Of a stretch of DNA of 64,000 bases, positions 13,411 to 62,023 are shown piece after piece. The DNA is taken from NCBI GenBank assembly GCA_030272585.1, contig BSYQ01000010.1:3844001-3908000 (forward strand). Reading direction: 5' to 3'. Within the stretch, counting starts at the first letter, position 1; the number at the start of each line of letters is the position of its first letter. Both the position numbers and the translations under genes were made by a program. A model generated the notes under the pieces. It was not told the DNA's origin. It saw nothing but the letters and a program-made list of their open reading frames with translations, and ran no database searches. Origin of the DNA: Bryopsis sp. KO-2023. Lineage: Eukaryota; Chlorophyta; Ulvophyceae; Bryopsidales; Bryopsidaceae.

Positions 13411-16400
13411 ATGGCGATTCCAGACGAGCAGATGGCCGGTGCTGAAGAATCCACCTCAAAAGATAAGAAACACCTCAAGGATGGGAATGCCGAGGCTGAC
13501 CCCGATGCCGATCTATCCGACGAAGACTTGGAACTCAAGAAAAGTTTGGAATTGATGGTGGAGAGAATACGGGATCCCGACGAGGGTGTGAGGAAATTGG
13601 CGCTGGGCAGCGTTGGAGAGGAGATCCGATCGGCGACGACGTCGATGACGTCGGTGCCCAAGCCTCTGAAGTTTTTGCGACCCCACTACGAAACATTGAA
13701 GGAGACGCTGGATAGTGTGAAAGCTCCAGAAAACAAGGTCTCTTTAGCTGACGTTATTTCGATTATGGCATCCACCTGTGCAAAGGCAGGAGAAAGAGAA
13801 ACTCTGAAGTATCGACTGCTTGGGTCTGGAGAAGATATTGGTAAGAGGGATTTAATAGTACTTAACATAAACATTTTTTGTTTAAAGTTTTTTGTTACCC
13901 TTGCAACAGGGACTGCAAGAAAGTTGCACTAAGGATATTTTTTTCCTTTCATTGATTCATTTTTTTTTTTCAATTTGAGGTATCGTTAGGGTAGGGCTGT
14001 TATTGTTAAGAAAAGAGCTTAAAACCTACCACTGGATTTTTTTTTCCACTATGTACAACACTTGTAGATTCTTTTTTTTTTCAATTGTCGACCAATGATG
14101 TTGTTTTTCTTTCTTTTCAATTCCTGGTGATTTCCAACAATAACGACTGCATCCCCATAGAATTTGAATCTTTCACTCTCTTTGAAAAACACGAACGTAT
14201 TGATTAATGTTTCTCCAAAAATTGATGTGACGATCAAGGGCTGTGATATACACCCTGCCACTATCTGTCAGCATAATTCAGAATAATGCATGATCTGTGT
14301 GTTGATTGCCTCCAGACCTAACAACAAAAGCCGAGGGATTTTCTTTCCACAATTTTTCATTGTTGGCTTCCCTCATTACTACTCTTAGTATTATTTTTGG
14401 CTAAAAAATATACATTTGTGCTTTATATATATTTTTTGTTTGGGGGGGGAGGGACTCCCCACCCCCCCTGCCCCTGCGCTTACCTCTAGGGGCCTGACCT
14501 GACCCACTTGTTTTTTCTGTTTTTTTTCCAAAAAGGTTCATGGGGGCACGAATACGTTCGCAACCTGGCTGGTGAAATCTCGGAGGCTTACCACGATCGC
14601 CAGGATGCGGACGAACCCGTGGAGGACCTGCTGAATCTGGTGAAACAAATCGTCCCCTACCACATGACCCACAACGCCGAACCCGAGGCCGTCGATCTGC
14701 TCATCGAAGTGGAGCGACTGGAGCTGCTGTCCCAATACGTGGATGAAGGCAACTGCCGAAGAACTTGCCTGTATCTCACCAACTGCCATCTGTACCTCCC
14801 CGAACCCGAAAACTCGATAGTTCTCGAGACCAGCCATGCGATATATTTGAAAATGGGGATGTTCCACGATGCTCTCCGGGTAGCCCTCAAAATCAACGAA
14901 AAGGGAGTGATCGAGCGGACGTTCGCCGCTTGCGAGAACCCCTTGGAGAAGAAGCAGCTCGGGTACTTGCTGGCCAGGCAAGGGGTGGTGGTGAATTTGG
15001 AAGAGGGGGAAGCTGCCATCGAGGACGAAAACCTCCAGGCCATGGTGCAGCACATCATCAGCAATTCGAACTTGAGCGAGTTGTTCTTGGAGCTGGCCAG
15101 GGATTTGGACGTTATGGAAGCCAAGGTATTTGTGTGCCAGCTATTTTTGGATACTGACCACTAGTCAGAATACAGCACTCGTCCTTTCAGGGCTTGCACC
15201 CTTCGTCGCTTCAGGCAAATACAAATGACTAAAATTTGTTGAACCAAGGAATATTTGCATATGCCTTGTGAGGAGGGGAAAAAAACAACACCACTTCTTT
15301 GGGGAGGTGTAGTAAATGAATAAGTGTGAGTTTGAAAATGGATGGATAGGTTCCGGAAGATGTGTACAAAGTGCACTTGGTTGAGGGTCGAGCGCCAGCA
15401 GGCAGGGCGATGGATTCGGCCCGCCAGAATCTTGCGAGCACATTTGTGAATGCTTTCGTAAATGCTGGATTTGGCCACGATAAACTGATGACCAAACCTG
15501 AAGAAGCTGATGGGGCACAGGTGGGTTCGCAATGATGAATTACACTCATTGTTCCTACAGTTTCGAATCCCTTTCGACACGCAAAAAAAAAAGCTTTTCA
15601 GTCTATTTTTCAAATTAGCATTTCGTATACTCCTTCGTCTGTGTGTACTGTAATTTCGATTTCGCGACCTGCTTAGCGAATCGCGAAATTTTGAAAACAC
15701 TTATTTTTGAAGACGAAAATGATCACCAGTGGGTTAAAATCGAAGTTACAGTATTGTCCGCCACTTTACAAGCCATTCTTTTTTTGATTTTTTTTTTTTT
15801 TTTTCTGGATGGGCATCAGGTTCAATGGATTTTCAAAAACAAGGACCACGGTAAAACCAGCGCCACCGCCAGCTTGGGAATGATCACGATGTGGGATGTG
15901 GAAGGGGGTCTGCCCCAAATCGACAAATACTTGTACACCACGGACAACTACATCGTGGCTGGGGCTCTGCTTGCCATCGGAATGGTGAATTGCTGCGTGC
16001 ACAACGATAACGACCCAGCTTATGCACTCATTTACGATAAAGTGAATCATGAAGATCCTACCGTTCGAATCGGGGCGGTCATGGGGCTGGGGTTGGCTTA
16101 TGCTGGGACTTGCCGGGAGGAAATCGAAGAAATATTGATTCCGTTGGTGGTGGATCCTGATGTGAGCATAGAGCTGGCTGGATTCGCTGCCCTGTCGCTT
16201 GGGTTGGTTTTCACGAGCACCTGCCACAAAGAGTGCGTCGAAGCCATTTCACAGGTGACCGTTTTTTTTATTTTTATTTTTTGAAAGCAACAAGTGTGAG
16301 TATGAACACATGGGGAAGATTAGGTGTGTTTCATTGTAAGGACAAAAAAACTGAAGAAAAGAAATCTGAACCATTATCTGAAGAATTGAAATCACATTCG

Positions 16401-26500: not shown

Positions 26501-28289
26501 AAGTAAATAACAACTTCGGTTCATTGTTTTGTGGGGGCAGGCTGGAATCGGCTCCATTGTGTGTCATGCCAATATCGTGCAAACCTACACCTACACCTTC
26601 GAACCCAGCGATTTCGGACCCTTGGTTGAGAAATCAAATACAAGGGTCTGCAAAATGCACATGATCCAAGAGTACTGCGAAAAAGGCCCTCTCAGGACAG
26701 CCATGGAGCAAAACAGTTTCGTTTGTTCTCTGGCGAAGCAACCGAATCTTAGGTAAAAAAGCAGGGGGGTTGGCTGCGGGAAAATCAAGCAAATAAGGAT
26801 TGGTTTTTTGGTCATGGTGGAAATCCCCATTGTCATTAGCTTTGCGACCCGCCCCTAAATTTTTCTTTTTCCAAAAATAGATCTTACGCGCTATTCAAAA
26901 GATCCACAAATTGTTGTGGAGGGAACATAGGATTTTATTTTCAGGGACTATTTGGGGGGGGGGGGGGTCTTGAGAAGTTTTTAACCCCCCCCCCCCCCCC
27001 CAAAAAAAAAAGAGGAAAAAATGCAGGGAAAGTTTAGGGTTTAAGAGTTTTCCTGTCTTTTTGGGATCTTAAAACTTTTCGTGCCCATGTCTGCCTGACC
27101 TTTATTTCTTGATGTGTTTTTCTGTTGCAGGTGCATGTTTGATGTGGCTCAAGACGTGGCAAGGGGTATGTCTTACCTACACAAAAGAAACATAATCCAC
27201 GGAGACCTTTCATCGAAAAACATTTTGCTTAGAGAATGTAAATCCGACGAGCGCCACACGCCCGTCATTGCAAAAATATGCGACTTCGGCCTCAGCGTCA
27301 AACTGCAGACCGCTCAAAGCCAGTTGGAGAACTGGAAGGCCGGCACCCCACTGTACATGGCCCCTGAAGTCGCGAAGTTCGGGATTCTTTCCAAAAGAGC
27401 AGACGTGTATTCATTCGGCGTGGTGCTTTGGGAATTGTATCGCAGTGCGTTAAACACTTGGGGCATCGATCGAGGGCAGGGGATAATGGATTTGCCTATC
27501 GAATGCCCGCTACCGCTTGCACTGTTGATATGTCTGTGCCTGTCGCCACGACCCTCCGATCGCCCGAGTTTCCAAGACATTGAACAAATTCTGGAGTGGA
27601 TGATGACTCAAGTGGATACCCCACAGTTCGGCCAAGCCAGGCGTGCCAAGCGGAGCAATCGGAAATTCGCTTCCAAGAAAATCGCGGCGAGCCCCCAGCA
27701 TTTGAGGGAGTTCTTGCTGCGAGGGGCCACGGATGATCAGCTGTTGATGGGGGGGTTGGATGTGCCGGTGGCCAACACCGCTTCCAGCAGCGATCGACAC
27801 CATTTCGTGTACTGTTTGATGGTGGATGTCGTGAAGCTGGGCGGCTCGCAAATGCTGTCCTTAGCGTGGAGGGCCAGCTCCCCTTCGACTTTGTCCATGG
27901 TTTCGGTTCCACCGACGCAGAAATCGGCCGAACTGAAGAATGAGGGGGGCGATACGAGAGGTCGAGAACCCATAGAGGGGGGAGCCTCAGCCAGCCCTCG
28001 CGGCCGATCGGCTGATTTCGGGAAGAAATCGACTTCGGTGGGGTTGGATCGAGGGAGCTTGTCTAGGCAGATTTCGAGCGATGTGGATGCGACTGTGGCA
28101 TGGGTGGATTGGTTGGTGGGGCTGGATTCTGATCCTGGCTGGGTGAAAGGTCAAAGGGGGGGGCCTTCAGTGGGGTATGTCGGAAATCAAAATAATTCAG
28201 GAGAAACGCCGTTACGTCATTTTGATCGAAGGAGAGCTGCTTCGATGAGCCCTACCTTGGAGAAACAGTTGTTCTCTGCCGAAATTTAA
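23507..28289 (+). CDS. Single-pass receptor-like protein kinase (TKL-like)
   Basis: Predicted membrane receptor kinase, 1117 aa, from six in-phase exons: 23507-23683, 24003-24332, 24555-24713, 25020-26336, 26541-26752 and 27131-28289. A signal peptide follows the second Met (residue 12; CFGIALLLLFLCL). The ectodomain (about 45-465) has beta-rich repeating text such as NFTIVGAVWSPRITISKNLT, suggestive of a parallel beta-helix, but I cannot name it. One membrane helix is at about 469-490 (MVVVFGVLLLVSVVAMLA). The kinase domain has the glycine loop IGRGGYGVVYKG (from 619), VAVK (Lys640), catalytic loop HGDLSSKNILL (His755, Asp757, Asn762), DFG at 783-785, GTPLYMAPE, and DVYSFGVVLWEL. HGD in place of HRD and the TPLYMAPE segment fit the TKL group found in green algae. 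About 250 residues after the kinase are low-complexity and Ser/Gly-rich. All catalytic residues are present, so it should be active. Confidence 0.88.
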
Positions 28290-33978: not shown

Positions 33979-36235
33979 TCAGCTGAACGTGCCCAGGAAA
34001 TTTCTGAGATCGTCCAGAGCAGCAGAAGCTTCGGATGACAAAGGCGTTCCGTTCAGCAAATTGCTTGCCTCGAATGGGTCCAATTTCAAATCATACAACT
34101 CTTCACCACCACTTCCGCTGAAATCAATGAGCTTGAACCTGATGAGAAGACACCCAAACAAATACTTAGAAACATGTCAATCGTTTACTCCAAAACTTTC
34201 CTGAGAAACACGAAGTCGACTTTCTCGGACATGCACAAAGTGATCAGGGGTAGAGTCCGGAGTATATCCTGGACCAACTATGTAAGTGGTCATAATGCCA
34301 TAATCTTGCACCTGTCATTTCGGGCCACTCGACCCTCCTTCCCATCATCACCATCGTCGGTGGTCCTGCTAGTGGCTCCAGTCTGACTTCTTCGATTGCC
34401 TCCTCTTCCTCCAGCTCTGCCGCCAGCTCTACCACCCCCCTTCATGGGACAATCAAACACTTCGCCATAGTTGTATTCTCGGCCGCCGATGCCCCCCTTC
34501 AACACACTGTCGAAGCTCAGGGAGTCCACCTTGACTCCTGCAGGAACCGCCTCACCTACATCCACCCCAACGAGCTCCAAAATCGTCGAAAACAAGTCGA
34601 CCGTGTGGATCAAAGCATCTGATCGACTGCCTTTGGATGCCACAGCTGGTCCAGAAACTATGAACGGGACGTTGATGCCCCCTTGATACAGACTGCCCTT
34701 TCTCTTGCCGACATCATAGGGGCCCTCCCCGACTCTAGTGGGCCCTCCATTATCCCCGATGAATATGATATTGGTGTCGAGCGGAAGGGAATTCAGCAGC
34801 CGTCCGATCTCGGTGTCCAGAGCCTCCAACATCGCTTTGAACATGGCGCGATTCTTGTTCCTGACACCCCTGGCCCCATCGATTTCTCTTGCCAAGCTGT
34901 GCAGTTCAGAAGGCGGGGAGTGAAACGGAGAATGCACAGCGAAATGAGCCAACCATAAGAAGAACGGCTTGTCACCTTGCTTCTCGACCCACTCAATTGC
35001 GTCGTCTGTGAATTCCGACGTCAGGTAATTAGTGGATTGGGACGTTATTCCGTTGACGGTTTTTTCCCAGTCGAAGTAATCACTGGCGTTTTCCAGGACT
35101 CCAGCATAGTAATCAAAACCCATTTTGTTGGGACTGGAAGTGCCTCCGTTCTCCACCGTATTTACATGCCACTTTCCTACGCATGCGTTTGGGATCTTTG
35201 TAAAAAGAAGAAGAAAAAAAAACACAAGAGAAAGTGAGCACGTCTTTCTAAAAATAGAAATGAACAGGGATCGAGCTGGTAGCATTACATTCAGAACGAA
35301 GCTAGCAGCCATATTGATTTAAATTCGTCGACCCAAATTAACAAAGAAGGAACTGGCCTCACCCCAGCAGATCCCATGGCTTTGGCAATCGTGAATTCTG
35401 TGCTCTTGGGGCCGTTTCGAAGACAACCCACTCCGGTTCGAAATCCAAACCTCCCAGTCAGAATTGAGGTTCGTGTGGCGGTGCAAACGGGGTAACTGTA
35501 GGCATTCTCGAAGGTCATCCCATTGGCAGCCAGTTTGTCGATGTTTGGGGTTTTTGCAAAGGTGCTTGCTTCTCTCAGTCCATAGAGCTTCAAGTGGTCC
35601 AGTCCGAGGTCATCGATGATTATGAGAACGGCATTGTCAGCTGAATTCCCCCCCCAAAAAAAGAATAAAATAAAAGACAAGACAAAAAAATAGTGAAGGA
35701 AAAGACTTTCACCCGCACTCTCCCCCAGCTATGACTCACTCCTAAATGACTGACTGATAAAACTTAGAAATGGTGGAAAGAATCTCCCTGTTCAAACTAT
35801 ATGTGCTCTTGCAATTTTCCCAGCTTTCCCCATCAAGGCTGTCAGACTTCGTTATCGCTCGCTAAATTTATGGAGAGCAAAAATAGTAGGCACTGGGATT
35901 TGAACCCATGTCGCCTCTTTTTTCAAGCCAAAAACTACCTCAAACTGTAAGATTTTTTTTCCAGAAGGAATTAGCTGAAATGGTTTTCGATTCCCTCAGC
36001 TTATTCTAGTTTTCATGAAAAAACTGAAAGCAGAAGTCGAGCCCAAAATTAGCGTTGCCAATTTATCAGGCCGTTTTGTTTTCAACAAGAGCGTGTTGTG
36101 CCGGGAAAAAAAAAAATAAAGCGCGTTCCACGGTTTCGCGATCCCTCCCACAGAGATCCCACGACTACCTTCGACGAGCTGGCTCACGAAGATGGCGAGG
36201 AGCACAGAGGCTAATATATACTTCGTCGAGGTCAT
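33979..36235 (-). CDS. Secreted Cys-type sulfatase
   Basis: Formylglycine-dependent sulfatase, hydrolysing sulfate esters, probably in the secretory pathway or outside the cell. Four minus-strand exons join in phase: 36235-36169, 35640-35363, 35195-34312 and 34138-33979, giving 462 aa. Residues 1-20 form a signal peptide ([17 protein letters not shown]). Metal-binding Asp32-Asp33 lie in [13 protein letters not shown]. The modification motif is [13 protein letters not shown] with Cys75 as the future formylglycine and Arg79. Also present are [18 protein letters not shown] and [17 protein letters not shown]. Near the C-terminus a Gly/Arg-rich insertion ([14 protein letters not shown]) interrupts the domain before [17 protein letters not shown]. 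The Cys-x-Ala-x-Arg form needs a formylglycine-generating enzyme. The physiological substrate, such as a sulfated wall polysaccharide, is a guess. Its start codon is 297 bp from that of the divergent HERC-type gene. Confidence 0.92.
35885..35935 (-). other. tRNA T-arm-like fragment inside sulfatase intron 1
   Basis: On the minus strand the text CATGGGTTCAAATCCCAG followed by TGCCTACT resembles a tRNA T arm plus the 3' half of an acceptor stem. I could not find a matching 5' acceptor strand (AGTAGGCA) or a D arm in the adjacent bases. It may be a tRNA relic, the head of a tRNA-derived SINE, or chance. Confidence 0.2.
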
Positions 36236-36532: not shown

Positions 36533-39500
36533 ATGTCGAGTTTGGAAAAACGGAGTTCGACGACAGGTCGATACCCCAGTCTGTTGGCGAGCCCCCCGAG
36601 AAAAATGAAGCTTCAGATTTTTGGTTGGGGAAGAGGGGATTTGGGGCAGCTCGGAAACGATTCGGAAGGCAACGTTTTGTCCCCCCAGAGGATTCCACAG
36701 TTTGAGGGGAACGACTTCGTACTATTGGCTGGAAACGTTTACAACACTGCAGCCCTCACTGGTAGGTGGGGCCTCTGTTTGAATCCTTATGGTGTCGTTT
36801 CTGATCACTGGAGCCAGGCCAGATTTTCATACTTCAGAAAAAAAAAATAGTTGGATCAAATTCATCGGTTGGGGAAGTATCCACCGACAAGTAAACTATT
36901 TAACTATTAATTTAGCAAGTAGTTAAATAATTGGGGTTGAGGATGCCCTTTTTTTTTCCCCAATCCAGATGATGGGGAGGTCCATATGGCTGGCAACAAT
37001 GATGCTGGTCAGTTAGGAAATAAGGATCGAACGACGAAATTCATTGCCAGTAGAATACAAGCCCTGGATTTGCATCGGGTCGTGCATTTGGCCGTTGGCC
37101 AGCAACACACACTGGCAGTCACTGAGAAGGTACCAGCGAACATTTCTCAACCATTTTCATTTCATTTCTTGTACGTTTTTTCTCTTTCTTCACATAATGG
37201 GGGGAGGTAAAAGTGGGGAAAGATAAGGGATCCTTCGTTTGGAAAGAAAAGCAGGGTTTAATCCACTCTGTTCATTTGATCGAAGTTTCTGTGGCAAGTT
37301 GTTCGGCCTTATGTCAAAGAGCGATTTGATGTTGAGAATTTTTTGCAGTGTTTGTTTCCAGGGATGTTTGGTTGCGTGGGGCGATGGTGAATTTGGGCAA
37401 TTGGGCCATGGGGGCAAGATCATTGAACAGGCAATTCCAAAACCGGTAAAAATGGAAGGAAATAGTCATTTTGTGAGGTAAGCCTCCCAACGTTTGACTG
37501 TGATGTGCTTTCAATGAAGGGCAAACCCACCGGATGCATTCCTTATCTCAGAATCCTGCCGATTGAAAATCGTTATGTTCTTATTTCTTCTTTAATTGTG
37601 CTGGTGGGAGGAATGACACTTGAGAAATAAATAAATAAATAACGCCAATTTTTGATGCATAATCAGAGATCAAACCAATACGGATGTTCTATGTGTGTAT
37701 TTGTGTAAAGTTGCCATAGTGCTGCTGCATTGTCACACTTTCATGTACTTTCATGTCAGACTAAGTTACTGACAAAAGAGTGACACTGAGGCCAAGATTT
37801 TGAAGTTGCAGGTGTGCTGCTGGAAATTATCACAGTCTCGTTTTAGCATCGAACGGGGAAGTTTTGTCGAGCGGAGAGGGGGCATACGGAGCCTTAGGGC
37901 ATGGCGATTTGTGCAATGCCAATTTATTCACCAGAATAAGAACGCTGTGGAGTGTGGGGGTGGTACAAGTTGCATGTGGAGAACATCACAGTGCAGCCCT
38001 ATCTGTGGATGGACGGGTCTTCACGTGGGGAAGGGGAAAATATGGGCAGCTGGGGCTAGGAGACTTCAATAGCGTGGATGCTCCAAAATTGGTCACCATG
38101 AATGGAGTGAGAGGACGACAGGTGAGTGGAATATGTGTGGGGAAAGGTTCAGGTTTTTTTTCTCGTTTTTACTGTAAGATTGATGGGGATGGTTTTTTTG
38201 GGGGGCTTTTAACAAACGCTGGCTGTTCAGCAACCTTGCCCTTGTTTTTTTTTGTTTTTTTTTCTCTGTTTGTTTTTTCCGGGCAAGATACAGTTGGTCA
38301 TCGTCAGTTAAGATTCAATGAAACCGGTATGGGGAATGATGACCATTAAAAAAACAGCTACTTCTGACTGTCAGTGAAGAGGTACCATGTCTGACCCAGC
38401 AGCCCGTGTATTTTCTCAGTCTCTGTTTTGTGAAAAAATTGAAGGGGAGTGAATGGGGGGGAAGGGGAATGATGACGATAAAAAAACAGCTACTTCTGAC
38501 TGTCGGTGAAGAGTTAACCATGTCTGACCCAGGAGTAATTGTATTTCCTCAGTCTCTGTTTTGTGAAAATTCTGAAGTGGAGTGAATCGGGGGTGGGGGT
38601 GGGGGGAATGATGACGATGAAAAAACAGCTACTTCTGACTGTTAGTGAAGAGTTAACCATGTCTGACCCAGCAGTCGTCGTATTTCCTCAGTCTCTGTTA
38701 AGAAAATTTTGAAGGGGAGTGAATCAAGGGGGGGGGGGGTGATGACGATAAAAAAACAGCTACTTCTGACTGTCAGTGAAGAGCTAACCATGTCTGACCC
38801 AGCAGCCAGTGTATTTCCTCAGTCTCTGTTGTTAAAAGTTCTGAAGGGGAGTGAATTAGAGTGGTTTTCTGAACATCGATCCTTTCATATCAAATGCTAT
38901 TGATCTCATCTGGGGTTTTGGGGTGCAGGTTGCTTGCGGGGGTGATCACACTTTGCTGCTGGGAGATCGGGGGGAGTTGTTGTCTTGGGGAAGGAGCACA
39001 TGGGGCCAGACAGGTTTGGGAACAACAGAAAACCAACCTATTCCAGCTGCAGTGGTGGGTTTGGAGAATGAATACATCATTCAGGTAATCATCCCTCTTT
39101 TGTTTAGCCCCCCATTTTGACCAAGTGTCCATTCGATGTGCGATTTCTTGTTTTTGGTAATCTGATTTGGGGGAGTAAGAAGAACCATAAGGGAAAGGAA
39201 ATGTTTGAGAGCTCCAGGAAAATGTGCAAGAACTAGAAAAACAGGTAAAAGTTATATATATATATAGAATCAGAATTGATGTTTTTCCTCGGAATAATGT
39301 TCCCCATCGTCCCATGTGTAGATCAGTGCGGGGAGGGGCCATTCTTTGGCGGTTGCCAGGAGAGGTGTTTTGTTTGCATTCGGAAACGGGGAGCAAGGTC
39401 AGCTGGGCCTGGGCATCATGACGAACGAAAAGCTAGCATTGGAAGTGAAAGGCCTTCCCGAGTTTCCAATTCTGTATGCTCTAGCAGGTCAGTGGTGAGC

Positions 39501-49679: not shown

Positions 49680-51505
49680 CTACTGTCTGCCCAACTGCCA
49701 TCGGCCAGGCTTGAATAATCTGGGCTTCTTCGTCATTTCTGTCCTGCAGAGAGGGCATTTTCTGGTGGAAAACCAGAGTTTTTTGGCGCAAACGCCACAG
49801 AGAACCGAATGTCCGCAAGGGTAGAGCGCGTGTCGGCATCTATCCATATGCTGGGCAGACAGGAGGTCTTCCGCCGTGAAATCCTCCATGCACACAACAC
49901 AGGCTTTGTTGTGCAAGCCGTGGCGAGACTCCAAGATGTCATCCACCATCACCTGGTTGAAAAATTGACAAAAAAAGTAGACTATAGATATAATTTCCTA
50001 TCTTTTTTCTGAAGAAAAAAAAATGCGGGGAAAAAAAATGCTGGAAAGTGCGGAGATATGGTCCTACCTGCAGGTCTTCTGGGACTTCAACATTATTCTT
50101 TACTTCTCTGCACAATTCGACAAAAACAAAAAAAGCCAATCAGAAACAAGACGGCAAAATAAAAATAAAATTTGAACGCACACAGCACAAATGTAGGACG
50201 GAAACGTAATTTTGCCTGTTTTTTCAACATCCTTTATTAAAGGAAAAAAAAAAAACCCAAAAAAAATTTGCTCATCATCAGTTTTTTTCCTTAAAAAAAC
50301 AAAAGCAAACCAAGAAAACTCTGCAAAAGAGCTAGGAGGTTCAACCGACCCTCCACAAAAAAAAAAAAAAAATCTTTCCGACTTAGGAGTACATATATGT
50401 TGCTATTTCCATCGAACATATCGAAAAGACAGCGAGCGGCCCCACCTGACCACCCCGGCCAAGTTTTGACGATTGTCCATCGATTGATTCGATTGATGCA
50501 ATTGAAGCAAACTTTCGTTCTCTTCCCGCTCCCGGACCGCATACTCCAGCCTTTGCTGAATGCTGGACAACTCGTCCAGCCATTTGGCCTTCAGGCTCTC
50601 CATTTCCTGCATCACTTGGGCACACAGAACCTCCTGTCTTTGCAGATTTTCTTTTTCCTTGTCGAGCTTACGCATGCAATCCATGCTCCGGACGTCCCTC
50701 TCTACCGACGGTCGTGAAGGCATGCGATCATGGAAGTCGCTCCTGTCATTTTCACAACAGATAAAAAAAAATCAAACTCAGAACCTCCATTTTGCCATCA
50801 ACACAAAAAAGTTGGCAATTCCAAAAAGCAGAGCGCTCCAGTCTCAACTCCCCCCACAGGGGCAAAATAAGCAAAAAAAGACAATCGAAATACTAATAAT
50901 GATGATAACAGGCTACAGTTCAGAAAAACTGACCTCAACTGCCTGGTTGGCGATCTGATTTCGCCTGAGTTCTGTGCGTCCGTTGATGCAACGTAACGGC
51001 CAAGCCATTCTTCCACCCTGTGATTCATGTAGCCTGTCTGCTGGCCATTAGTCGAACCGTTGTCAGGATCTCGGAGCCGCTGGCCTTGCAAATGGGATCC
51101 CTGCCATTGAATCACAACCACAAAACTCAAAACCAAAGTCACTCCCACTGATCAAGCCCCCATGCCCGGAAGAATTGCAAGGGTTAGAAATCACAACAGC
51201 CCCAGAAAACCGAAGTCCCCAAAATCGATCAAGAGAGAGGAAGCAGATCGATCCCCACTGTGGCAACTGCGTGAAATTCTTTCTACGCCCCCCATTACGT
51301 AATCGATGGAAGAGGCAGTCGCTCGTCAAGCGATCTCGAGATCCTTCATTACCCTGCCATTCTGCGCATCCATGCTGCGCCGAACTTCTTCCAAAACCGA
51401 GTGGCCGCACAGGCGCGCCCCCACCCAATTACGCACGCGGCTCCGCATACCCTTCCGCTTGTGCAACGACGACGGAGAAGATGCAGCGTGCGAGTCGAAC
51501 ATCAT
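49680..51505 (-). CDS. Coiled-coil RING-finger protein
   Basis: Predicted E3 ubiquitin ligase. Five minus-strand exons join in phase: 51505-51353, 51100-50934, 50742-50446, 50107-50068 and 49952-49680, giving 309 aa. Residues up to about 105 are basic and not recognised. A heptad-rich helix covers roughly 115-205 (RKLDKEKENLQRQEV, QEMESLKAKWLDELSSIQQR), consistent with dimerisation. The C-terminal RING (237-288) reads CVVCMEDF ... CRHALYPCGHSVLC ... CAKKLW ... KCPLCRTEM and has the full set of zinc ligands of a C3HC4 finger. A 40-nt exon 4 links the two halves. The start is one of two adjacent ATG codons at 51505/51502; the frame is open further upstream. No partner is evident. The 5' end lies 264 bp from the Ngaro-type retrotransposon. 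Confidence 0.82.
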
Positions 51506-51769
51506 CCTGGCCAACCCCTCCCTTCGAATGGAGAACGCTGACCCAAAACCCGCTCCAAAATGAAAAAAAAATCTAGCGTCGCTCCTCCACGCAGCCTTCT
51601 TGTTTGCTGGGAACACGAGGGCGGTGAATTACGTGTGAATATGATTCCGATGAAAACTACAATCACGCCTGTCCACTAGAGAACGATGGGTGTTTCACGG
51701 CTGCACAGGCGACACAAAAAACCGGATCGAAGCATGACTCAACGAAAATCGGGCCAGCCCCCCACAGCG

Positions 51770-51929
51770 AATGAAAGCTTTACTTGAGAATTAAGTAAAG
51801 CCTGTTACAGGGGTTCATGTAAAGCGAACAAGAGCCTGAAATAGCTGCGGTTACTCATGACTATTCAGAGTAACGATTTAAGCAGCAAGAAAAACAAGCA
51901 AGGTAATTCTTGTTTTCCTTTTTGTTTTC
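51770..51929 (+). repeat. Ngaro-type repeat A1
   Basis: 160-bp left terminal repeat, starting aatgaaagctttacttgag and ending with a T-rich stretch (ccttttt, then gttttc). It matches A2 (57856-58015) with no difference I can see, and the match stops abruptly at 51929/58015. Confidence 0.9.
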
Positions 51930-53074
51930 GCCTGCTCGCCTTCGGCTTAGGTCGCTGGCGTTGTGGGTGATATTCACTCAAAACAAAACAAGTTCTCTCT
52001 ACCACCGACAGTTCAGTCTGTTCCGTGGTTTTCGTCTACAAGTTCCGCAAGCGTCCAAGACTACTGCTGCACGACCATCAACAAATTGCTGCTGCGCTCC
52101 TGTCAACACCACCTCCTACACGGACCTCGGTGGGCTCCTCTTCATTCCAGTCAACAACCAACCGCTACAACATCGTCCACTACCCCTGGCTAGCGTGTCC
52201 GCCATCCTTGAAGTCCAGTTCCGCCATCTACTCCGTTCCGGCTACCCGTACCTACCTTTGTTCCTAAGTCCGATTCCTTGGCAACCAGCCAGGTTTCAGG
52301 CATTCAGTCCAGCGTTCCTGGCACTAAGTCCGGCATTACCGGCATAAAGTCCAGCGTTCCTGGCACCTATCCGGCATTACCGGAAAACAAAAGTCCAGCG
52401 TTCCTGGCACTAAGTCCGGCATTACCGGCATCAAGTCCAGCGTTCCTGGCACCCATCCGGCATTACCGGAACAAAGTCCAGCGTTCCTGGCACCAAGTCC
52501 GGCATTACCGGCAATACTACTCTTTCTTCGCAAACCCCCAAGGGTTGTAGTCCTCACTTGAGGCAAAGTCCCTGTGCAAACAGGTTCCCCAAGTCCAGTC
52601 AACTTCCTGGAATTTTCTGACACAGATAGTGGTTCCCAGGAACCCTGCCACTCTTACAGAGGCTGGCTTTGCCTCAGTGGCTACAGTCTGGCAATTTGGA
52701 GCCTCTCAGCTCCTTCAGCTGAGTGCACATATCGACTTCACAAATTCATAGTGTTGTCATTCACAAATTCCAGCTTGGATATCGAATTTCCTGGGGTCTT
52801 TGTGAAAGTTTTCCCTGTGCACAATCAGGCCCAGTTGACCTGAGTTTCCAGCCAGTCCAGTTAACCTGGCACAAGTCCAGCAACCTGGCAGTACACAGTT
52901 CGTTGACCTTCGTCGGGACGGCTGTAAGCACGTTGTTTCTGGCGACTCTTTCGGTCCCAACTCAACTTCCATTTCACCTCAGCCAAGTCAATCCAAGGCC
53001 ATCTGTCGCAAGCTGCCAGTCCAGCTGAAATACTCTCCCGTTCACGCCCACTGCTATCTCGGTCTCACGTGTTG
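51930..53074 (+). other. Leader of the retrotransposon with a short-unit tandem array
   Basis: This part precedes the pol frame. It contains a minisatellite at about 52305-52515 built from alternating blocks agtccagcgttcctggca and agtccggcattaccggca, repeated with variation. The frame at 51910-52347 is open but looks like a product of the repeat; I cannot confirm a gag-like protein. It may function as a 5' untranslated leader or encode a fast-evolving gag. Confidence 0.6.
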
Positions 53075-56000
53075 ATGTCCACGGGGTTTTGGTCCAGAAT
53101 TTCCCCAACTCGAGCAAATATGCCAGAATCCACGCCAGAGGTTCATGATATCGAGGAAGAAGTATCTGCTCCGGCTACGGCCGAACAACTGTCTCAGCTC
53201 ATCGCCCATGTATCGGACATTGCTGCGGTGCAAAATGATATTCGCCGGGAAAACTCGTCTCTACGAACTGAACTCGCACGTATGAGTGCAAACACCACAC
53301 AGGAGAGCCTTACACCGCTAATCCATTCAACCTTTCTAGGACCAGCAGCCGCTGCGTCGCTAGAAATGGACAAAGCGTTCCAACAGTCCCGGGAGATGCC
53401 TTTGGCAGACGGACAGGAACTAATCCGTGGTAGTGCTGCTCTGGTTCGAGCTATTCTGGTGAAAGGGCATGGCGCCGGGTGGAAAAACCCACAAGTGACA
53501 CAGATAATTGGCCGCATCTCCGACGACGATCGGGTCAAAGCCTCAGAGGACAGTAATTTTCCAAGCCAATGGTTGTCTACGCAAAATCTGCCAGAAGCCC
53601 CACCCATGCAACGAACGTTTTCGGGCAGGAAACAGCCGGCGCAGTCACAGGAGTTATCGCTTCTCCGGAGGTTACTTCCAGCAATCAACAAGCGCAATGC
53701 AGACAGGGAACCCGACAGCCCTCGAAAAAGTAAGTTCCCCTGTTTGACAAATGCTGTTCATTGCGGGGGGACGCTGGTTCCCGGCGTGCCCCAGCTGCAT
53801 GTCGCACCTATAGCGACGGTAGTTCCGGGCATCCAACAAAACGCAGACGTCACTGTACAGAAACTGACGTCCCTGGTCGATTCCCTTCAGTTTCGCCACA
53901 ATGGGTTACTGGTGCGGCGAACTATCCATGGGACGTTTCTCGGTGTCCTAAACAAACGTCCTGCGTTGCGACCGTCAGTCGAATACGCGGATGCTCAAAC
54001 GTGGGCTACTAATTATCAGTTACCTTTGCGTTCCGGGCCATTCAAAACCGGCGACATTAGCCGTTTTTCCGAACAATGGAAAACCTTGTGTTCTCCAGGT
54101 TCGCCTGTACCTAGTTGGGTCAAACATGGTTTTCGTGCGGAACTGCACGGTCTGAACACTCTGATCGCAAAGAAACAACTAAAACAGTATCGCCTTAGCG
54201 ATTCCGAATGGAAATTTCTAAGAACAGAAGTCAAACGAATGTTAGAATGGGGCGCCGTCGAAGACGTTACCCATCTCAAAGACCAACCACACGAGGTTGC
54301 TTTCTTATCGCCGCTCCAGACAGCGCCGAAACCGCCTCCTGACTTATTTCGATTCTGCTTCGACGCACGAGCAGTGAATGACTGTCTTCAAGCTCCCAGC
54401 TTTCGCCTTGAAGGCATCAAAGTCGTAAAGGAAATGCTCCGCGCAGGGGATTTCCTTTGGGGCTTTGATTTTAAGAAGGGCTATTTTCAATTACCCCTTC
54501 ACCCGGACTTGCAGCGCGTCTGCTGTTTCGAACTCGACCGCCGAGTTTATCGATTCAAGTGCGTGCCCTTCGGATTGTCGAACGCACCTTTCGCTTACAC
54601 AAAACTTTTGCGGCCGCTCGTCAGAAAATGGCGGAGCCTCGGAATCCGGGTTGTCCTGTATTTCGATGACGCCCTGTTTTTTAACACGTCTCTCGCAGAC
54701 GTCATTGAAACGCAAAAGATTGTTTTCGCCGATCTGTTTGAGCTAGGTTTGCGGCTAAACATGGATAAGTCTAACCTGGTTCCCACGAAAAGGGTTAAGT
54801 TCCTTGGCTTTATCGTGGAGTCGGAACCAATGGCGCGAGTTTCTGTTAGCCAGGAAAAGCTCGAGAAAATTGAAAACGCAGTCGGAAACTTGCTGCGGAT
54901 GCCACATTTTTCCGGACAGCAGGCGGAGCGTGTGGTCGGCTACGTAGTCGCCACCCTCCCTGCGATTCCTTTGGCTCGATTTTTTTCCAGGTCGATGTTT
55001 CAGCTCTTGAGTAAATTGCCAATCTCGTCGAAGGGGGTCCGTAATAACACCTTCTTGTTACACCCCTCACCGGAGGTGCGTGACGACTTAAGGTTGCTCC
55101 AGGCAAATCTCGATAAGCTGAACGGCATGTCTGTTGAGCCTTCGGCTCCCCGTGTAGTTCTCTACACCGACGCGTCCGGACTTGGATGGGGAGCTAGACT
55201 TTTTACAGCATCCCATAATGTGACGCCACTGCGCGGCCAGGGACGTTGGCCGACTCTTACGGCGACCGATTCCGTTTGGACGGAGCTGAAAGGTGTGTTC
55301 GCGGCGCTTGTGGCTTTTTGGCCTCATGTTGTCGGGAAACGCATTTTAGTTCGCACCGATTCTACAGGTGTTCGTGGGTTTTGGAAAAACGCTGGTTCTC
55401 CTTCTCTTAACGACGGAATCAACCTGCTTGTGCTCGCCTTAGCTACCCTCGAGTTGCTTGGAGATTTTTCCTTGACTATTGGGTTCGTTGGGTCTGCGGC
55501 GATTATCGATTCCGGTGCTGATGAAGAGTCACGGGTTTTTCACCCAGAGGACTACAAGTTGAACCCGCTGTGGTTCAACTACGTGTGGTTATTATGGGGA
55601 CCGTTCACGATCGATTTATTTGCGTCGAACCTTAATCGGCAACGGAATCCAGAAACGGAAGAACCTCTGCCTTTTTGTTCAGAGAGTCATGACGTCGGCG
55701 CTTTTGCCGTCGATGCCTTGTCTTTCGCGTGGACCCAGGGAAAGTTTTACGGCAACCCCCCCTTCTCGATGTTGGGCGACGTCGTCCGCCACTTACTGTC
55801 GCATGGCGGAAGTGGTGTTTTGGTCATTCCTTGGTGGCCCGCAGCTCCCTGGTTTGCCACTCTAAAGCCGTATATCCGTGATACTTTCAGCTTGCCACAG
55901 CAAGCAGATACCTTTTTACCAGGCACGATGCGAAATGATGTGGGGACGGGGACACCCCGAACGAGTTCAGGTCACGCTATGCACTGCGCGGTGGTATCAG

Positions 56001-57073
56001 TCGTTTTCCCCAGCCCGATTCATTGTTCGACGAAGACGTTACGTCCAGCTCCGACGGTGCCAGGGAGCCCCAAACGGTCTCTTACCGCCATTTTCCAAAA
56101 TCCTGTTCTACGAGAACAGGCGTTGGATTGGCGCGCGTTAGCCAAAGCGCATCTGGAAGCAAGTACGCAGCAGACATACGCTTCCAGGGTCAGACAATAT
56201 TCGCAGGTCTGCAACTTGGCGCAGTTGGCGCCATTTCCTGCTTCGGAGCATTCTGTTGCAACTTGGATTTCGGTTCAAGTCGTGATGGGGTTGGCGTTCA
56301 ATACGATCGCGACAGGAATGGCCGCCCTTGCCAAAACAGTGTGGCTTCAGCAAGGGGAGGATCTTTGGACGTGGACTGGCGTTCAGCAGTGTTTGGAAGC
56401 AGCAAAGAAAAAACTCGGGACAGGCACGCAGCAAGCGAAGCAGCCCTTTTCCTTGGACCAGCTCTGCAAGCTGGTCAAGGCGGCTGATGCGGTCTCATCG
56501 ACGATTGGCGCTCGTGACGCCTTTGCTTTTTGCTTAGCTTTTTTCGGCCTGTTGCGAGTTTCTGAGCTCGTTTGTGTTCGCGCAGAACACTTAAAATTGG
56601 CAAGTCCAGACGGACTTGAATTATTTCTACCGCAGTCAAAAACAGATACCCATCGGCAGGGGACATGGGTACGTTTGCCTCGACTGCCAGACAGTTTAGC
56701 GGCAGTTTGTCCTGATCGGCGGGGGCGAGCGTATCTGCTGCAGTTACGCAGTGTTTTTGTGTTTCCGCTGGCGAGAAATGCGGCGAGACACCTCTCGCCT
56801 CGCGGTTTTGCTGACCGTGTTTCTGGGTACATCGCATCGGCTATGCCGGAAGTACCCCGCCACCTCTACGGCACTCATAGCCTACGCAAAGGGGGCGCCA
56901 CTCTTATGAGTCAAGCAGGCGCCCCTGTGAGACAAATCAAAACACAGGGGAGATGGCGGTCGGATGCCGTCTTCCGATATGTTCTCGACACCGAGGCCGA
57001 CGCCTGGCGAGAACTTCGAACACTCGCCCAACGTTTCGTGTTCGACGACTTAACGCGGGATAGGGCGACCTAG
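53075..57073 (+). CDS. Ngaro/DIRS-like polyprotein: RT, RNase H, tyrosine recombinase
   Basis: Replication and integration protein of the retrotransposon: it copies element RNA and inserts a circular DNA product by recombination. From the ATG at 53075 it is 1332 aa with no stop or intron (an alternative ATG is at 53120). The reverse transcriptase spans about 390-650 (LWGFDFKKGYFQLPL, FGLSNAPFAYTKLL, catalytic VVLYFDDALF with YFDD at 529-532, KVKFLGF-like motif VKFLGFIVE). RNase H follows (LYTDASGLGWGA, Asp699; ELKGVFAAL; LVRTDSTGV). A DIRS-typical linker contains YGNPPFSMLGDVV and LVIPWWPAAPWF. The tyrosine recombinase occupies the last 300 residues with Arg1161 (GLLRVSELV), SKTD, His1268-x-x-Arg1271 (GTHSLRKGG), GRWRSDAVFRY and nucleophile Tyr1302. 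All catalytic residues are present. Codon use is smoother and less T-biased than in the surrounding non-coding DNA. Confidence 0.93.
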   Translation: MSTGFWSRISPTRANMPESTPEVHDIEEEVSAPATAEQLSQLIAHVSDIAAVQNDIRRENSSLRTELARMSANTTQESLTPLIHSTFLGPAAAASLEMDKAFQQSREMPLADGQELIRGSAALVRAILVKGHGAGWKNPQVTQIIGRISDDDRVKASEDSNFPSQWLSTQNLPEAPPMQRTFSGRKQPAQSQELSLLRRLLPAINKRNADREPDSPRKSKFPCLTNAVHCGGTLVPGVPQLHVAPIATVVPGIQQNADVTVQKLTSLVDSLQFRHNGLLVRRTIHGTFLGVLNKRPALRPSVEYADAQTWATNYQLPLRSGPFKTGDISRFSEQWKTLCSPGSPVPSWVKHGFRAELHGLNTLIAKKQLKQYRLSDSEWKFLRTEVKRMLEWGAVEDVTHLKDQPHEVAFLSPLQTAPKPPPDLFRFCFDARAVNDCLQAPSFRLEGIKVVKEMLRAGDFLWGFDFKKGYFQLPLHPDLQRVCCFELDRRVYRFKCVPFGLSNAPFAYTKLLRPLVRKWRSLGIRVVLYFDDALFFNTSLADVIETQKIVFADLFELGLRLNMDKSNLVPTKRVKFLGFIVESEPMARVSVSQEKLEKIENAVGNLLRMPHFSGQQAERVVGYVVATLPAIPLARFFSRSMFQLLSKLPISSKGVRNNTFLLHPSPEVRDDLRLLQANLDKLNGMSVEPSAPRVVLYTDASGLGWGARLFTASHNVTPLRGQGRWPTLTATDSVWTELKGVFAALVAFWPHVVGKRILVRTDSTGVRGFWKNAGSPSLNDGINLLVLALATLELLGDFSLTIGFVGSAAIIDSGADEESRVFHPEDYKLNPLWFNYVWLLWGPFTIDLFASNLNRQRNPETEEPLPFCSESHDVGAFAVDALSFAWTQGKFYGNPPFSMLGDVVRHLLSHGGSGVLVIPWWPAAPWFATLKPYIRDTFSLPQQADTFLPGTMRNDVGTGTPRTSSGHAMHCAVVSVVFPSPIHCSTKTLRPAPTVPGSPKRSLTAIFQNPVLREQALDWRALAKAHLEASTQQTYASRVRQYSQVCNLAQLAPFPASEHSVATWISVQVVMGLAFNTIATGMAALAKTVWLQQGEDLWTWTGVQQCLEAAKKKLGTGTQQAKQPFSLDQLCKLVKAADAVSSTIGARDAFAFCLAFFGLLRVSELVCVRAEHLKLASPDGLELFLPQSKTDTHRQGTWVRLPRLPDSLAAVCPDRRGRAYLLQLRSVFVFPLARNAARHLSPRGFADRVSGYIASAMPEVPRHLYGTHSLRKGGATLMSQAGAPVRQIKTQGRWRSDAVFRYVLDTEADAWRELRTLAQRFVFDDLTRDRAT

Positions 57074-57513
57074 GCGTCGTTTTTTCGGGATAAAAATTTA
57101 TCTCCATGCTTCCTGTGTTGTGAAGTTGTTTTTTCTGAATGTGCCATTTTCCTTGCAGGGCACAAATCCGGATCCAAATCCAGAAAGTAGAGAAATGGTG
57201 CATGCAAATGGGACAGGCTGCTGTCTGTGACGGAATTTTCGATTCGATGTTGAGGATGGAAATTGGGGGTGTTCTGGATTCCGATTGATTTCTTTTCCTG
57301 GATTGTAACCATGGTGTTTGGTTTCAAACAAAAAATTGCATGTCTGCAATCGACTGTGTTTTTTCTGGCTGGATGTCTTTCTTTAGCCATCCTGTTTCCT
57401 TCTCCCTTTTCATCTCCACTACTCAATTGTCCTTCTCGAAGTCCATTCTTATCCTTCTTCTTTTAAAACCACAAAAACTCCTAAGGTCTGGGCACCAAAT
57501 CTCTTCTGTCATG
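57074..57513 (+). other. 3' non-coding part of the retrotransposon before B1
   Basis: Between the pol stop and repeat B1 lie about 440 bp without a convincing frame. It presumably includes the 3' untranslated sequence of the element. Confidence 0.6.
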
Positions 57514-57855
57514 GAGAGAACTGGAGTGAAGTTTACTAAGTTAAGGAAAGAGTGTCTTATTCGAGTGAGTGGCCAGTAACTTGAGTGGAGTGTAGGAGTG
57601 GAGATCAGGAGAAGGAGGCAAGGAGGGAGGCAGCAGCCAGTGCCAGCAAAATGGAGAAGAAAGGAACTGCAAAGCTGCAGTGGAGAAGTTGAGTCAGAAG
57701 AAGGTATCCTTATGAGACCATCCTTAAAGAAGTGAAGGTACATTGGATTGGTCTGACAAACTGGAATAGCTGATTGTTAAAAGCAAGCATGGAATCCATC
57801 TGTGGATGAATGGAAGTATATTGATTGGATCTGACAGGTTGGAATAACCAACTGT
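57514..57855 (+). repeat. Ngaro-type repeat B1
   Basis: 342-bp repeat starting gagagaactggagtgaag and ending ataaccaactgt, directly abutting A2. It recurs as B2 at 58034-58375 at a constant offset of 520 bp, with no difference that I can see. Confidence 0.9.
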
Positions 57856-58015
57856 AATGAAAGCTTTACTTGAGAATTAAGTAAAGCCTGTTACAGGGGT
57901 TCATGTAAAGCGAACAAGAGCCTGAAATAGCTGCGGTTACTCATGACTATTCAGAGTAACGATTTAAGCAGCAAGAAAAACAAGCAAGGTAATTCTTGTT
58001 TTCCTTTTTGTTTTC
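57856..58015 (+). repeat. Ngaro-type repeat A2
   Basis: Internal copy of A1, immediately after B1. It is separated from B2 by 18 bp (58016-58033, ccgaccctatccctccct). The junction is the site where the circular replication intermediate would be rebuilt. Confidence 0.9.
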
Positions 58016-58033
58016 CCGACCCTATCCCTCCCT

Positions 58034-58375
58034 GAGAGAACTGGAGTGAAGTTTACTAAGTTAAGGAAAGAGTGTCTTATTCGAGTGAGTGGCCAGTAAC
58101 TTGAGTGGAGTGTAGGAGTGGAGATCAGGAGAAGGAGGCAAGGAGGGAGGCAGCAGCCAGTGCCAGCAAAATGGAGAAGAAAGGAACTGCAAAGCTGCAG
58201 TGGAGAAGTTGAGTCAGAAGAAGGTATCCTTATGAGACCATCCTTAAAGAAGTGAAGGTACATTGGATTGGTCTGACAAACTGGAATAGCTGATTGTTAA
58301 AAGCAAGCATGGAATCCATCTGTGGATGAATGGAAGTATATTGATTGGATCTGACAGGTTGGAATAACCAACTGT
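58034..58375 (+). repeat. Ngaro-type repeat B2 (right end)
   Basis: Right terminal copy of B1. The element ends at about 58375-58378 (ctgtaat); the host sequence cgtcgttggc follows. Confidence 0.88.
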
Positions 58376-58378
58376 AAT

Positions 58379-60235
58379 CGTCGTTGGCATGTGATGGATG
58401 CTCAGTAATCTTTGCGTAAGGCGTAAGATCTGCGGCAGCTTGGGTTTGAGGCTGGCAGCCCAACGAGCTGGAACTCGCGTGAAGTGGGAAAATCGACGTT
58501 ATCCGCTCGCTACCTGTTTTTCCTCTCGGTACTCAACCGCGACAGTAACGGCCACTCCAGCTTTCAACGACGGACAACTGGGGACGGGTGGGTTCTTCAC
58601 CACCTCGACCACTCAACCACTCAACCACAACAAGAAAGACGCCGCTCACAAGCGAGTCTGGCGGGGGCTGCGGCCCACTGTGCAGATTTGCTCGGAACGG
58701 AACAAATCTGACGACAGCCAACGGAGAGCACTGCGTTTGTGGGCGGCGTCTTTAGGGTAGTTCCCTTGATTTCCGACTGGGCTTGATGTAGGGAACCCAT
58801 TTGGTCTCCTCTCACGCCAATGATCTTTTCCCGTGAACCGCGGACCCCGTTTTAAGCCCCATCCCATAGAAGTGCGTCTCGACGGGACCGTCATCCGACG
58901 AACGCGGATGTTCAACAATAGGAGGGATTGCAACGATCTTGCGAGCCGTCCAGCAGCAAGAGAGGGTGGGTGGGTGGCCCGTCGCGAAGCTCAAAACTTC
59001 ACCACGGGAACAGTTCGATTTTGCCGAGCATGCGTTACACGTCCGTTACGTTGGCACTTCGATCAGCAATCAAACAGCACCCACTGTGTCGGAACCCCAC
59101 ACCGGCATTCGTTTCTTGGTTGTGATGACCGATTTTTTGTTTTGAATCGTCCCACAATTCTGATTTCATTCCGCAAGATGGGTGCTTGAAAGTGACCTGC
59201 CAGCAACTGCTTTCAAGAAGAAGATCTCAGCACAATCATAAGCCCAGTTTCCTTCCAACTGATGCACACACCCCTGGCAGCAATATTTTCCCTCAAAAAC
59301 GTATGACAAAAGACCGGGCAAGATTATTCCTGAGGAACACTGTATCAGCTTGTAGTTGACCTTACGGCATCAGATTTTGCAAGGCTTACATGTGGACAAA
59401 GTGGGCAGCCTAACATTGATCAAATCCTGTAACACAACATGTAACTACCACTTCCATCCCATGACACATAACACACACATTGCATGCTGGTTTGGTGTGA
59501 GGCAGGATGAATAAGACAGCCCACAGAAGGAAAAAAAGGGAAAAAAGATTGGTGACCCAGCAATTCTCGTGTCTCCATCGACCAACAGCTCTCTTCTCCA
59601 GGGGCAGGCTTGCTTGACAGGTTCCTCAGGTCTGACAGGAGCAAGCCTGGAATGAAAGGGTGGCAAAGAAACTTTGATTAAAGAACTTGAAGTTTTGCCC
59701 TAGCCTTCCAAACAACCCACCTGGATGGGTGTTTGAATCCACTAAACCAACAACCTCAACATACACAGTCACATAACAGGAGCCAGGATTTGAAGAGATC
59801 TCACGACAGCCATCTGGCGCATTATTCACTTGAAAAAAACGACGAGTCATCTTCAAATTCTCGTACAATAACAGGCTGTCGAGACGAAAATCATCTTGAG
59901 GAGGGGGTCACTGACAGTTGGACCGCATGCAGGATCTCCATCTTGATTTAAAAAGATAACCTACCGTGTTTTTCAGCATCTTGCGCCAATGACACGAGAA
60001 GAATTCGACCACGTGCTCCCCACATGATAAGGAAATTCGTTCACAGCGCCCCCAACTCTCTTTTGATCGGACACGACAGGCTGCATATCAGTGGTTTTTC
60101 GTGCCATGTGCACCCCATAATAGCCTCATCAGATTCCATCCAGGAGCTCAAATTCCAGCATGGCGTGGTGGTGGATGTTCAGGTTCACCATAGGGTTACG
60201 ATATGTCGGGAAGACGACGGTGGGGAAAGCTGACA
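58379..60235. other. Unresolved region with coding-like islands on both strands
   Basis: Right next to the retrotransposon a plus-strand frame (58398-58760, 120 codons) starts with a basic, Ser/Arg-rich sequence like a mitochondrial presequence (MLSNLCVRRKICGSLGLRLA). A possible next exon from 58855 reads HPIEVRLDGTVIRRTRMFNN. On the minus strand, 59868-59700 encodes REISSNPGSCYVTVYVEVVG and LGQNFKFFNQ, faintly like the end of an OB-fold protein such as the small RPA subunit. I could not build either gene in full, so these are leads only. Confidence 0.3.
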
Positions 60236-62023
60236 TCAGTGCCGCCAATACCTGGGTGAAAAATTCGAGGCTCTGGCCTCCACTTCTTCATGCAGCCTGG
60301 TCAGAACAGGGTCTACCCAAAACTTCAGCCTCTGAAAACCATCCACAATCATATCAAGCTCTTCTTGGCTGTATTTCCCCAAGCGCTCTCCCTTCACAAT
60401 TTCCTGACCCAGGCATGTCAGCAAATCTCGATCGTGGTAGTCCAAATCACCCAGAGCCGAGATTATTCTTCCCAAAGCCTGGCCCTTGAACCTCGACAAT
60501 CGCCTTGGTTTGGAGATTTGACTTGTCAAAGCTGCCAAGACGCCATTATCCTCCAGTCCCAATAACCCCACCCCAAAAAGCACGTTCGCGAGCTCTTGCT
60601 GTTTGAACCCTTCCAGACGGTCGTTTTTTGAAATTTCCTTGGCCACCCAAGTCAACGCCGGAAGATTGTCGAACCCCATCAACCCCAAGCCTTCCACCAG
60701 ATTGGCCAGCTCTTGGTCGCTGAATCCCTCCAGCCGCCGCTCGCTGGATATTTGACCTGCCAGAGTCTCCAGCAGATCCTCGTCCCCAAAGCCCATCCTC
60801 CCCAGAGCCCACACCGAATTCGCCAAAGCTTGCTCCCCCATTCCATCCTTGTTCTCGATTTCATCGACCAACAGCCCACAAATTTGCGACAACAGATCCA
60901 AATTCTCAAACCCGGCATATGCACAACCCAGCAAGAGATTTGAAAAAGATTGAGGCTGAATTTGTTCCTCCCTGGCGCTGTCGACAAAGGCCTCCACGAT
61001 TTCGTACATGATCGATTCCAGTTCAGGGTCTGACTCAGACCCATCTTGAGAAAACAACAAGCCGATGCCATGCATCGTGTTGGAAAGCTCCCTGACACCG
61101 TATTGCTGCGATTTAAACAGCCCCCTCTCGATGCAGTTGCTCAGCAAAGCTTCGGCAAATTCCCTCACGGTCGTCTTAAAAAAAGTCGACGCCTCCACCA
61201 GGTTTTCTTTCTTTGCAAAGCGAGCCAGCATCCCCAGCGATTGAACACTCATACTGACCCCAACAGGAACGAAACTCTGCAAAATGTCGGGATTGCCCAA
61301 GGCGCTTCTGATCAAACAGTGGCATAATTCTTCGTCCAGAAACGAGCCATCCTTGCAGCATTTCAGAACGTGTGCAATCCTGTAGGACGACGTGGATGTG
61401 AGGTTTTCTATTGCGAAAGCCTTGCATTTTTCCCATGTAATGGCATCGGGTTCATCTTCGGCATGGGCAAAACGATAGCTCCTGTGGCTGGAAATCGCAA
61501 CCATTTCTTTGAACATTTTCACCACTCGATCTTCCCTTGGGATGCTTTGACCAGGGAAACGGGATTGGTAAGCAGGCACCTATAGGATATGGATCGATGC
61601 AAAACATATTTCAGGCTGGAAAAAGAAAGGGGGATGTTGTCTCCAAGGAAAACTTGAGAAAAATGGAAAAGAAAACAGAAAGTTGAAATAAAGACATTCC
61701 AAGAAAAAAGGAATTAAGAAAAGCATCTCTGGGGACGTCTTTTTCTGACGATACAGGGTGGTTTTCACTACCCTGAAAACCAATAAGAATAAGTTACAGA
61801 AAGGGTCGACACAGTCGTGTCTCGAGCATACCTGTTGTCTGAGCGCGCCTTGGGCCCGGATCCCTTCGTTTCTACCCGCAACGTCTAAATTGTTGCTGAC
61901 GGCTCTGCACTGGGACAAGGCCTGCTCACGCCGTGAAGCGATCCCAACTCTACCAGAAGTTTCGAGTGAAAGCGCCGTGGAGACGACGCCAACCCTGCGA
62001 AACCTCCGAAGAGCAGACAACAT
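60236..62023 (-). CDS. Organelle-targeted helical-repeat protein (OPR/TBC2-like)
   Basis: Two minus-strand exons join in phase: 62023-61832 and 61579-60236, giving 511 aa. Exon 1 is an Arg/Ser-rich presequence without early acidic residues (MLSALRRFRRVGVVSTALSL), suggesting import into plastid or mitochondrion. Exon 2 is a run of about 38-residue helical repeats with recurring cores: QALANSVWALGRMGF, QELANLVEGLGLMGF, QELANVLFGVGLLGL and QALGRIISALGDLDY. These resemble the octotricopeptide/TBC2-like and FASTK-related repeats that bind organelle RNA in algae. The role would then be processing or translation of one organelle transcript (inference). The stop at 60236 follows a donor-like GTATTG at 60248, so a further 3' exon, such as a RAP domain, is possible. 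Neighbours do not inform the function. Confidence 0.7.

Follow-up and report, generated by a model that had tools for sequence, protein, structure and literature searches.

A complete tyrosine-recombinase retrotransposon, probably PAT/TOC3-like, in the genome of the green alga Bryopsis sp. KO-2023

Retrotransposons that encode a tyrosine recombinase (YR) are sorted in published descriptions by their repeats and by the presence of a methyltransferase (MT) domain: split repeats without an MT denote Ngaro or VIPER, split repeats with an MT denote PAT, TOC, or kangaroo, and inverted repeats with an MT denote DIRS1 (PMC4157794, PMC3266345, PMC6681497, PMC9210276). The absence of an MT defines Ngaro (PMC4157794, PMC3266345, PMC9210276), and the split-repeat layout is common to PAT/TOC elements (PMC4157794); the latter source adds that structure alone can mislead in classification. 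DIRS elements carrying a Dam-like MT are already in print (PMC3783388). Here we describe a single element at 51770-58375 (6606 bp) in a 64-kb stretch of the genome of the green alga Bryopsis sp. KO-2023 (the window, C10:3844001-3908000; genome 91.1 Mb in 28 contigs). Unless a contig is named, coordinates are positions within the window. Classed by its structure against published descriptions, the element is very probably a complete, recently inserted PAT/TOC3-like retrotransposon.

Structure of the element and its families

The element follows the order A1 - leader - one open reading frame (ORF) - B1A2 - B2, with the following features:

51770..51929, + strand: A1 repeat, 160 bp, starting AA-TGAAAG
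51930..53119, + strand: 5' leader, with two short ORFs of 145 and 101 amino acids (aa) listed inside
52299..52513, + strand: tandem array of 42-bp units within the leader
53120..57073, + strand: single ORF, Gag, reverse transcriptase (RT), RNase H (RH), MT, and YR; 1317 aa from Met at 53120, stop codon counted in
53120..54103, + strand: Gag-like N-terminal region, named Gag by position alone (P0001 residues 18-345)
54179..54868, + strand: RT region (residues about 371-600; Pfam RVT_1 461-583)
55151..55558, + strand: RNase H region (residues about 695-830)
55562..56008, + strand: Dam-like MT region (residues about 832-980; NPPF at 55754-55765)
56159..57028, + strand: YR region (residues about 1031-1320; Pfam Phage_integrase 1130-1300)
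57074..57513, + strand: stretch from the ORF to B1
57514..57855, + strand: B1 repeat, 342 bp, adjoining A2 without a gap
57856..58015, + strand: A2 repeat, 160 bp, equal to A1
58016..58033, + strand: spacer between A2 and B2, 18 bp
58034..58375, + strand: B2 repeat, 342 bp, equal to B1
58376..58377, no strand: AA just after B2, also present where B1 meets A2; putative recombination core

A preliminary description of this DNA had given the layout A1 - pol - B1 A2 - B2, and both the layout and its coordinates were borne out. Aligned base by base, A1 and A2 were identical at 160/160 positions and B1 and B2 at 342/342, with AAT directly 3' of each B; the one mismatch printed for the B pair is the base before B, outside the repeat. 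Inverted repeats of ≥20 bp were absent from 50500-60000.

A protein search of the genome, in which 35 of 1759 candidates were scored, gave 37 matches, and the counts are therefore lower bounds: at least 10 loci at 97-100% identity, at least two at 66% (family 2; L034 and L035), and at least one at 44% (family 3; L036), plus fragments. Families 2 and 3 share the plan A1 - one ORF - B1A2B2, no inverted repeats of ≥25 bp were found in L034-L036, and the two family 2 copies are 99.83% identical over 6496 bases. The element is complete, as described earlier; the description of such elements as uncommon needs some qualification, because the layout recurs in this genome at three other loci, which belong to families 2 and 3.

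The open frame spans 52928 to a stop codon at 57071-57073. Translation from the ATG at 53075 would give 1332 residues and from that at 53120 1317 residues; the latter start is preferred because its Met aligns with that of family 2 in a full-length alignment. The 1332-residue frame is stop-free from ATG 53075, as reported previously, and contains all of the expected residues, which we take to be catalytic (P0001 numbering): D467/D533/D534 in the RT, D701/E739/D764/D818 in the RNase H, and R1163/K1191/H1270/R1273/W1296/Y1304 in the YR. The YR is in direct orientation, and the internal repeats lie downstream of it. The Gag-like region had no Pfam match, and a C-X2-C-X4-H-X4-C zinc finger was not found in residues 1-420 of the window's family. 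Gag, RT, RH, MT, and YR would be translated as one polyprotein. This single frame, present in all three families found in the genome, is unusual in departing from the usual three-ORF description (PMC9210276). No single-ORF YR retrotransposon was found in the portions of the literature searched, including PMC2996953 and PMC9210276; Poulter and Butler 2015 and Goodwin and Poulter 2004 lay outside that scope.

Hairpins were predicted inside the left end of A (window 51777-51801; L034 805-830; L036 1198-1229), where the first 46-48 bases fold in 3/3 families despite differing sequences. Their z scores were -2.05, -1.35, and -4.47, with 12, 18, and 0 of 200 shuffles folding equally well, and just the last is clearly beyond the shuffles. 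The leader arrays of 42-bp-type units are possibly an RNA signal. By eye, the AAGTCC units of a leader repeat in family 2 (L034 1364-1537) resemble the window's 42-bp array.

The methyltransferase-like domain and the probable class of the element

The MT-like domain lies between RNase H and the recombinase. Its profile matched phage Dam (PF05869) with hhalign at 97.7% (E 1.6e-12). Dam-type methyltransferases are characterized by a [DN]PP[YF] motif, which reads NPPF in the window's MT (residues 896-899) and NPPY in 5/5 phage Dam rows. The likeness to the phage Dam adenine-N6 methyltransferases thus comprises the profile match and the NPP(Y/F) motif, whereas the window's MT is fused inside a retrotransposon polyprotein. 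A joint model of RH and MT (pLDDT 74.7, pTM 0.51) gave structure matches, among the rows shown, to RNase H and RT; the MT region was therefore modelled alone, which yielded a confident methyltransferase-like structure model. A sequence search of the PDB with the MT alignment returned two weak matches under other names.

In a 13-row alignment, NPPF occupied the motif site in 5/5 rows of the window's three families. The eight other rows, from in-genome elements labelled DIRS-type for their RT-RH-MT order and overlapping frames, irrespective of terminal repeats, read HPPI, HPPI, HPPV, HPPW, HPPW, FPPF, SPPL, and NPPW; N is thus found in one of eight rows, or one of seven families by our grouping, and six of the seven have neither D nor N. 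Distinct variant codons, counted against the window's copy across 10 other copies, gave synonymous/nonsynonymous changes of 67/32 in Gag, 72/21 in RT, 17/2 in RH, 15/1 in MT, and 25/8 plus one stop in YR. Random single changes would be expected at 1 synonymous to 2.93 nonsynonymous, so synonymous changes are in excess.

The domain most likely functions as an adenine-N6 methyltransferase and would act on the element's own nucleic acid. That it is instead an inactive remnant serving as a structural spacer appears unlikely. The degenerate motif of the other DIRS-type rows would suit a remnant, and PMC3266345 and PMC9210276 describe what the DIRS MT does as unknown; against this, the window's three families keep NPPF throughout, the MT shows 15 synonymous changes to one nonsynonymous, and its identity to families 2 and 3 (70% and 53%) compares with 72% and 45% for the YR.

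PCIF1 was the best-ranked fold match of the MT model, and one of 13 members matched PCIF1 at E 0.039. As an origin of the MT it was set aside provisionally: hhalign with a host PCIF1-like protein reached 2.9%, in a comparison whose single-sequence side lowers such scores, versus 13.0% for a single-sequence comparison with a gypsy Dam-like protein. A host protein (L062, C1:2009000-2011200) matches Pfam PCIF1_WW at 7e-47 and has GPPY where animal PCIF1 carries NPPF. Separately, a many-copy gypsy-like element (L044, C11:2588401-2591637; L041) has a stretch over the Pfam Dam cut-off, flanked by a zinc-knuckle-like Gag motif on one side and the RT on the other (other domains by eye), which is an unusual position for such an enzyme. 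The DIRS-type elements L045, L046, and L047 combine RT-RH(-MT) with a second long overlapping frame, and the NPP motif is degenerate in most sampled rows.

We file the element as PAT/TOC3-like because it combines split direct repeats, an MT (Dam-like through its relatives), a direct YR, and no Gag zinc finger. TOC3-like elements of the PAT group share these four features and an algal host (PMC4157794); this likeness is by description, and the fused Gag-RT-RH-MT-YR frame sets the window's element apart from them. Kangaroo differs in YR orientation and in the position of the internal repeats, those of the window's element lying downstream of the YR. Pat1 has a Gag zinc finger, and its nematode form differs also in the position of the internal repeats. 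DIRS1-like elements are alike in RT-RH-MT order and YR, but have inverted repeats (PMC4157794), whereas the window's element has none of ≥20 bp, and its pol and YR do not lie in overlapping frames.

The preliminary description had called the element 'Ngaro/DIRS-type'. The second half of that name stands, split repeats with an MT being the PAT/TOC arrangement of the DIRS group; the first does not fit the published definition, since an MT-like domain is present. The Ngaros of Cafeteria burkhardae (PMC8547959) resemble the element in repeat layout, length (about 6-7 kb), RT/RH/YR content, and solo A-B repeats, but are described in that source with three ORFs, and Ngaro has no MT by definition. 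A true Ngaro by descent that gained or always kept an MT is quite unlikely: the split direct repeats in the Ngaro order A1-[ORFs]-B1A2B2, with internal repeats downstream of the YR, are indeed found here, and the window's RT is distinct from the genome's DIRS-type RTs, but the MT is precisely what Ngaro is defined to lack, and PAT/TOC elements share the layout, which therefore gives Ngaro no advantage.

Several results weigh against the PAT/TOC3-like assignment and the Dam-like naming of the MT. An unrooted RT tree of 10 in-genome rows formed three groups, is uninformative on descent, and cannot place the window's RT; whole-alignment identity to each of three DIRS-type pol proteins of the genome is just 25%. 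The window's MT sequence alone has no Pfam match, the link to Dam running through relatives, and those pol relatives that match Dam all score below the PF05869 cut-off. In PHROGs the window's MT reaches just E 0.12, and in a Foldseek search with the MT model the best PDB match, at 1.3e-3, fell short of E 0.001.

Copies, insertion sites, and proposed repeat renewal

An 862-base B1A2B2 query against the genome gave 39 DNA matches, six of them full-length at 98-100%, a recurrence beyond chance. The 3' ends of the window's family were read in 11 copies: six have B1A2B2, and five have one B and then end, without A2B2. Solo A-B copies are also present. Among the six B1A2B2 copies, three have 5' defects: C26 runs off its contig, C15 has an insertion in A1, and the copy at C1:1.41 Mb a large insertion in the ORF.

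B1 and B2 within a copy showed no differences over 342 positions in 6/6 B1A2B2 copies. Where A1 is unbroken (three copies), it matches A2 at all of the 159-160 positions compared; in a fourth copy, A1 is in two pieces, both free of mismatches. From one of these copies to another, B differs at 3 to 6 of 343 positions and A at 0 to 2 of 160, two pairs being identical in both. Identity within copies together with difference between them fits a model in which every round of replication renews both repeat pairs. A transcript reaching from A1 into B2 would be reverse transcribed, and the B1/A2 block, in which the right end abuts the left end, would bridge the two cDNA ends to form a circle, renewing A1=A2 and B1=B2.

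The description as complete and apparently young is upheld by the identical repeat pairs, the intact frame, and the full layout; repeat identity indicates relative youth, a recent insertion, rather than an absolute date. It is highly improbable that an old copy was made to look young by gene conversion or an assembly artefact. Exchange between copies does happen: divergence along copies is uneven (the window's copy differs from that at C1:4.0 Mb by 1.1% in the first 500 internal bases, by 9.2 and 10.8% in 2000-3000, and by 0.8% near the end), which makes the copies mosaics, produced by either template switching or conversion. However, the copy nearest to the window's, a single-B copy with 15 differences in 5356 sites, lies at another locus with other flanks, and the B pairs are identical in all six copies though most copies differ from one another in B.

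Left ends show A-N-T in 16/16 insertions (nine of the window's family, five solo or older A-B copies, two of family 2), N being A in 10 and G, C, and T in two each. The base before A-N was A in 13/16 (P 1.2e-5 at 27.6% A, for a position picked after inspection). TGAAAG follows the left end in 15/16, the copy at C5:4.13 Mb reading TCAAAG; this C5 copy lies in repeated DNA, as its left flank is similar (81-87%) to DNA that interrupts the C8 copy. Right ends were TGT-AA in 15/15 cases from the window's family, solo copies included, and the flanks of 11 insertions compared did not match one another's. The single family 3 left end misfits A-N, with TT in place of AA, and tells against the insertion model given next. 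Overall, the junction sequences suggest insertion at A-A-N without target duplication. Through the recombinase, the B-AA-A junction of the circle would recombine with an A-N dinucleotide in the genome, for preference one that an A precedes; such a two-base core exchange would leave the target dinucleotide on the left and the element's AA on the right, with no target duplication. One flank looked T-arm-like by eye, but tRNA genes were rejected as targets, ARAGORN finding none in 20 loci, the window, and nine joined sites.

The copies without A2B2 would most likely stem from B1-B2 recombination and the solo A-B copies from A1-A2 recombination. Possible, though doubtful, is that both are primary recombinase products, the circle's equal junctions B2/A1 and B1/A2 resolving into A-pol-B and A-B circles that integrate separately. 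The five of 11 copies without A2B2 still end in TGT-AA, and a pair of single-B copies has 19 differences in 5353 sites but unrelated flanks, as primary products would; B1-B2 or A1-A2 homologous recombination, however, predicts the same outcome, and the other single-B copies have a B1A2B2 copy as nearest neighbor. The permuted A-B-A-pol-B expected of primary products was not evident from where the 39 matches lie, no separate search having been made.

Pieces of one diverged copy (G000, C3:7906837-7968151) are spread in order along 61 kb, large insertions having apparently separated them, with several gypsy matches nearby at C3:7.78-7.87 Mb. No relatives were found in viral contigs, and tblastn matches in plasmids were confined to the recombinase part in the eight of 40 records listed.

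Window neighbors and significance

Elsewhere in the window, Pfam matches mark pieces of host genes:

1957-3828: hydroxyproline O-arabinosyltransferase (HPAT)
13171-13929: RPN1
27102-28286: protein kinase
34293-35318: sulfatase
37807-38346: RCC1 repeats

A 447-aa ORF (60239-61579, - strand) contains, as judged by eye, repeats of about 37-39 residues; at E 0.001 it matches nothing in Pfam. Outside the window, the genome carries rbcL, of green type to judge from its sequence, on a contig of 91,672 bp.

This one genome brings together several families whose termini are clean and whose frames are open, along with many separate junctions. Three questions thereby become testable: the role of the DIRS/PAT methyltransferase, the renewal of split repeats through a circle, and the target bases needed by the recombinase.

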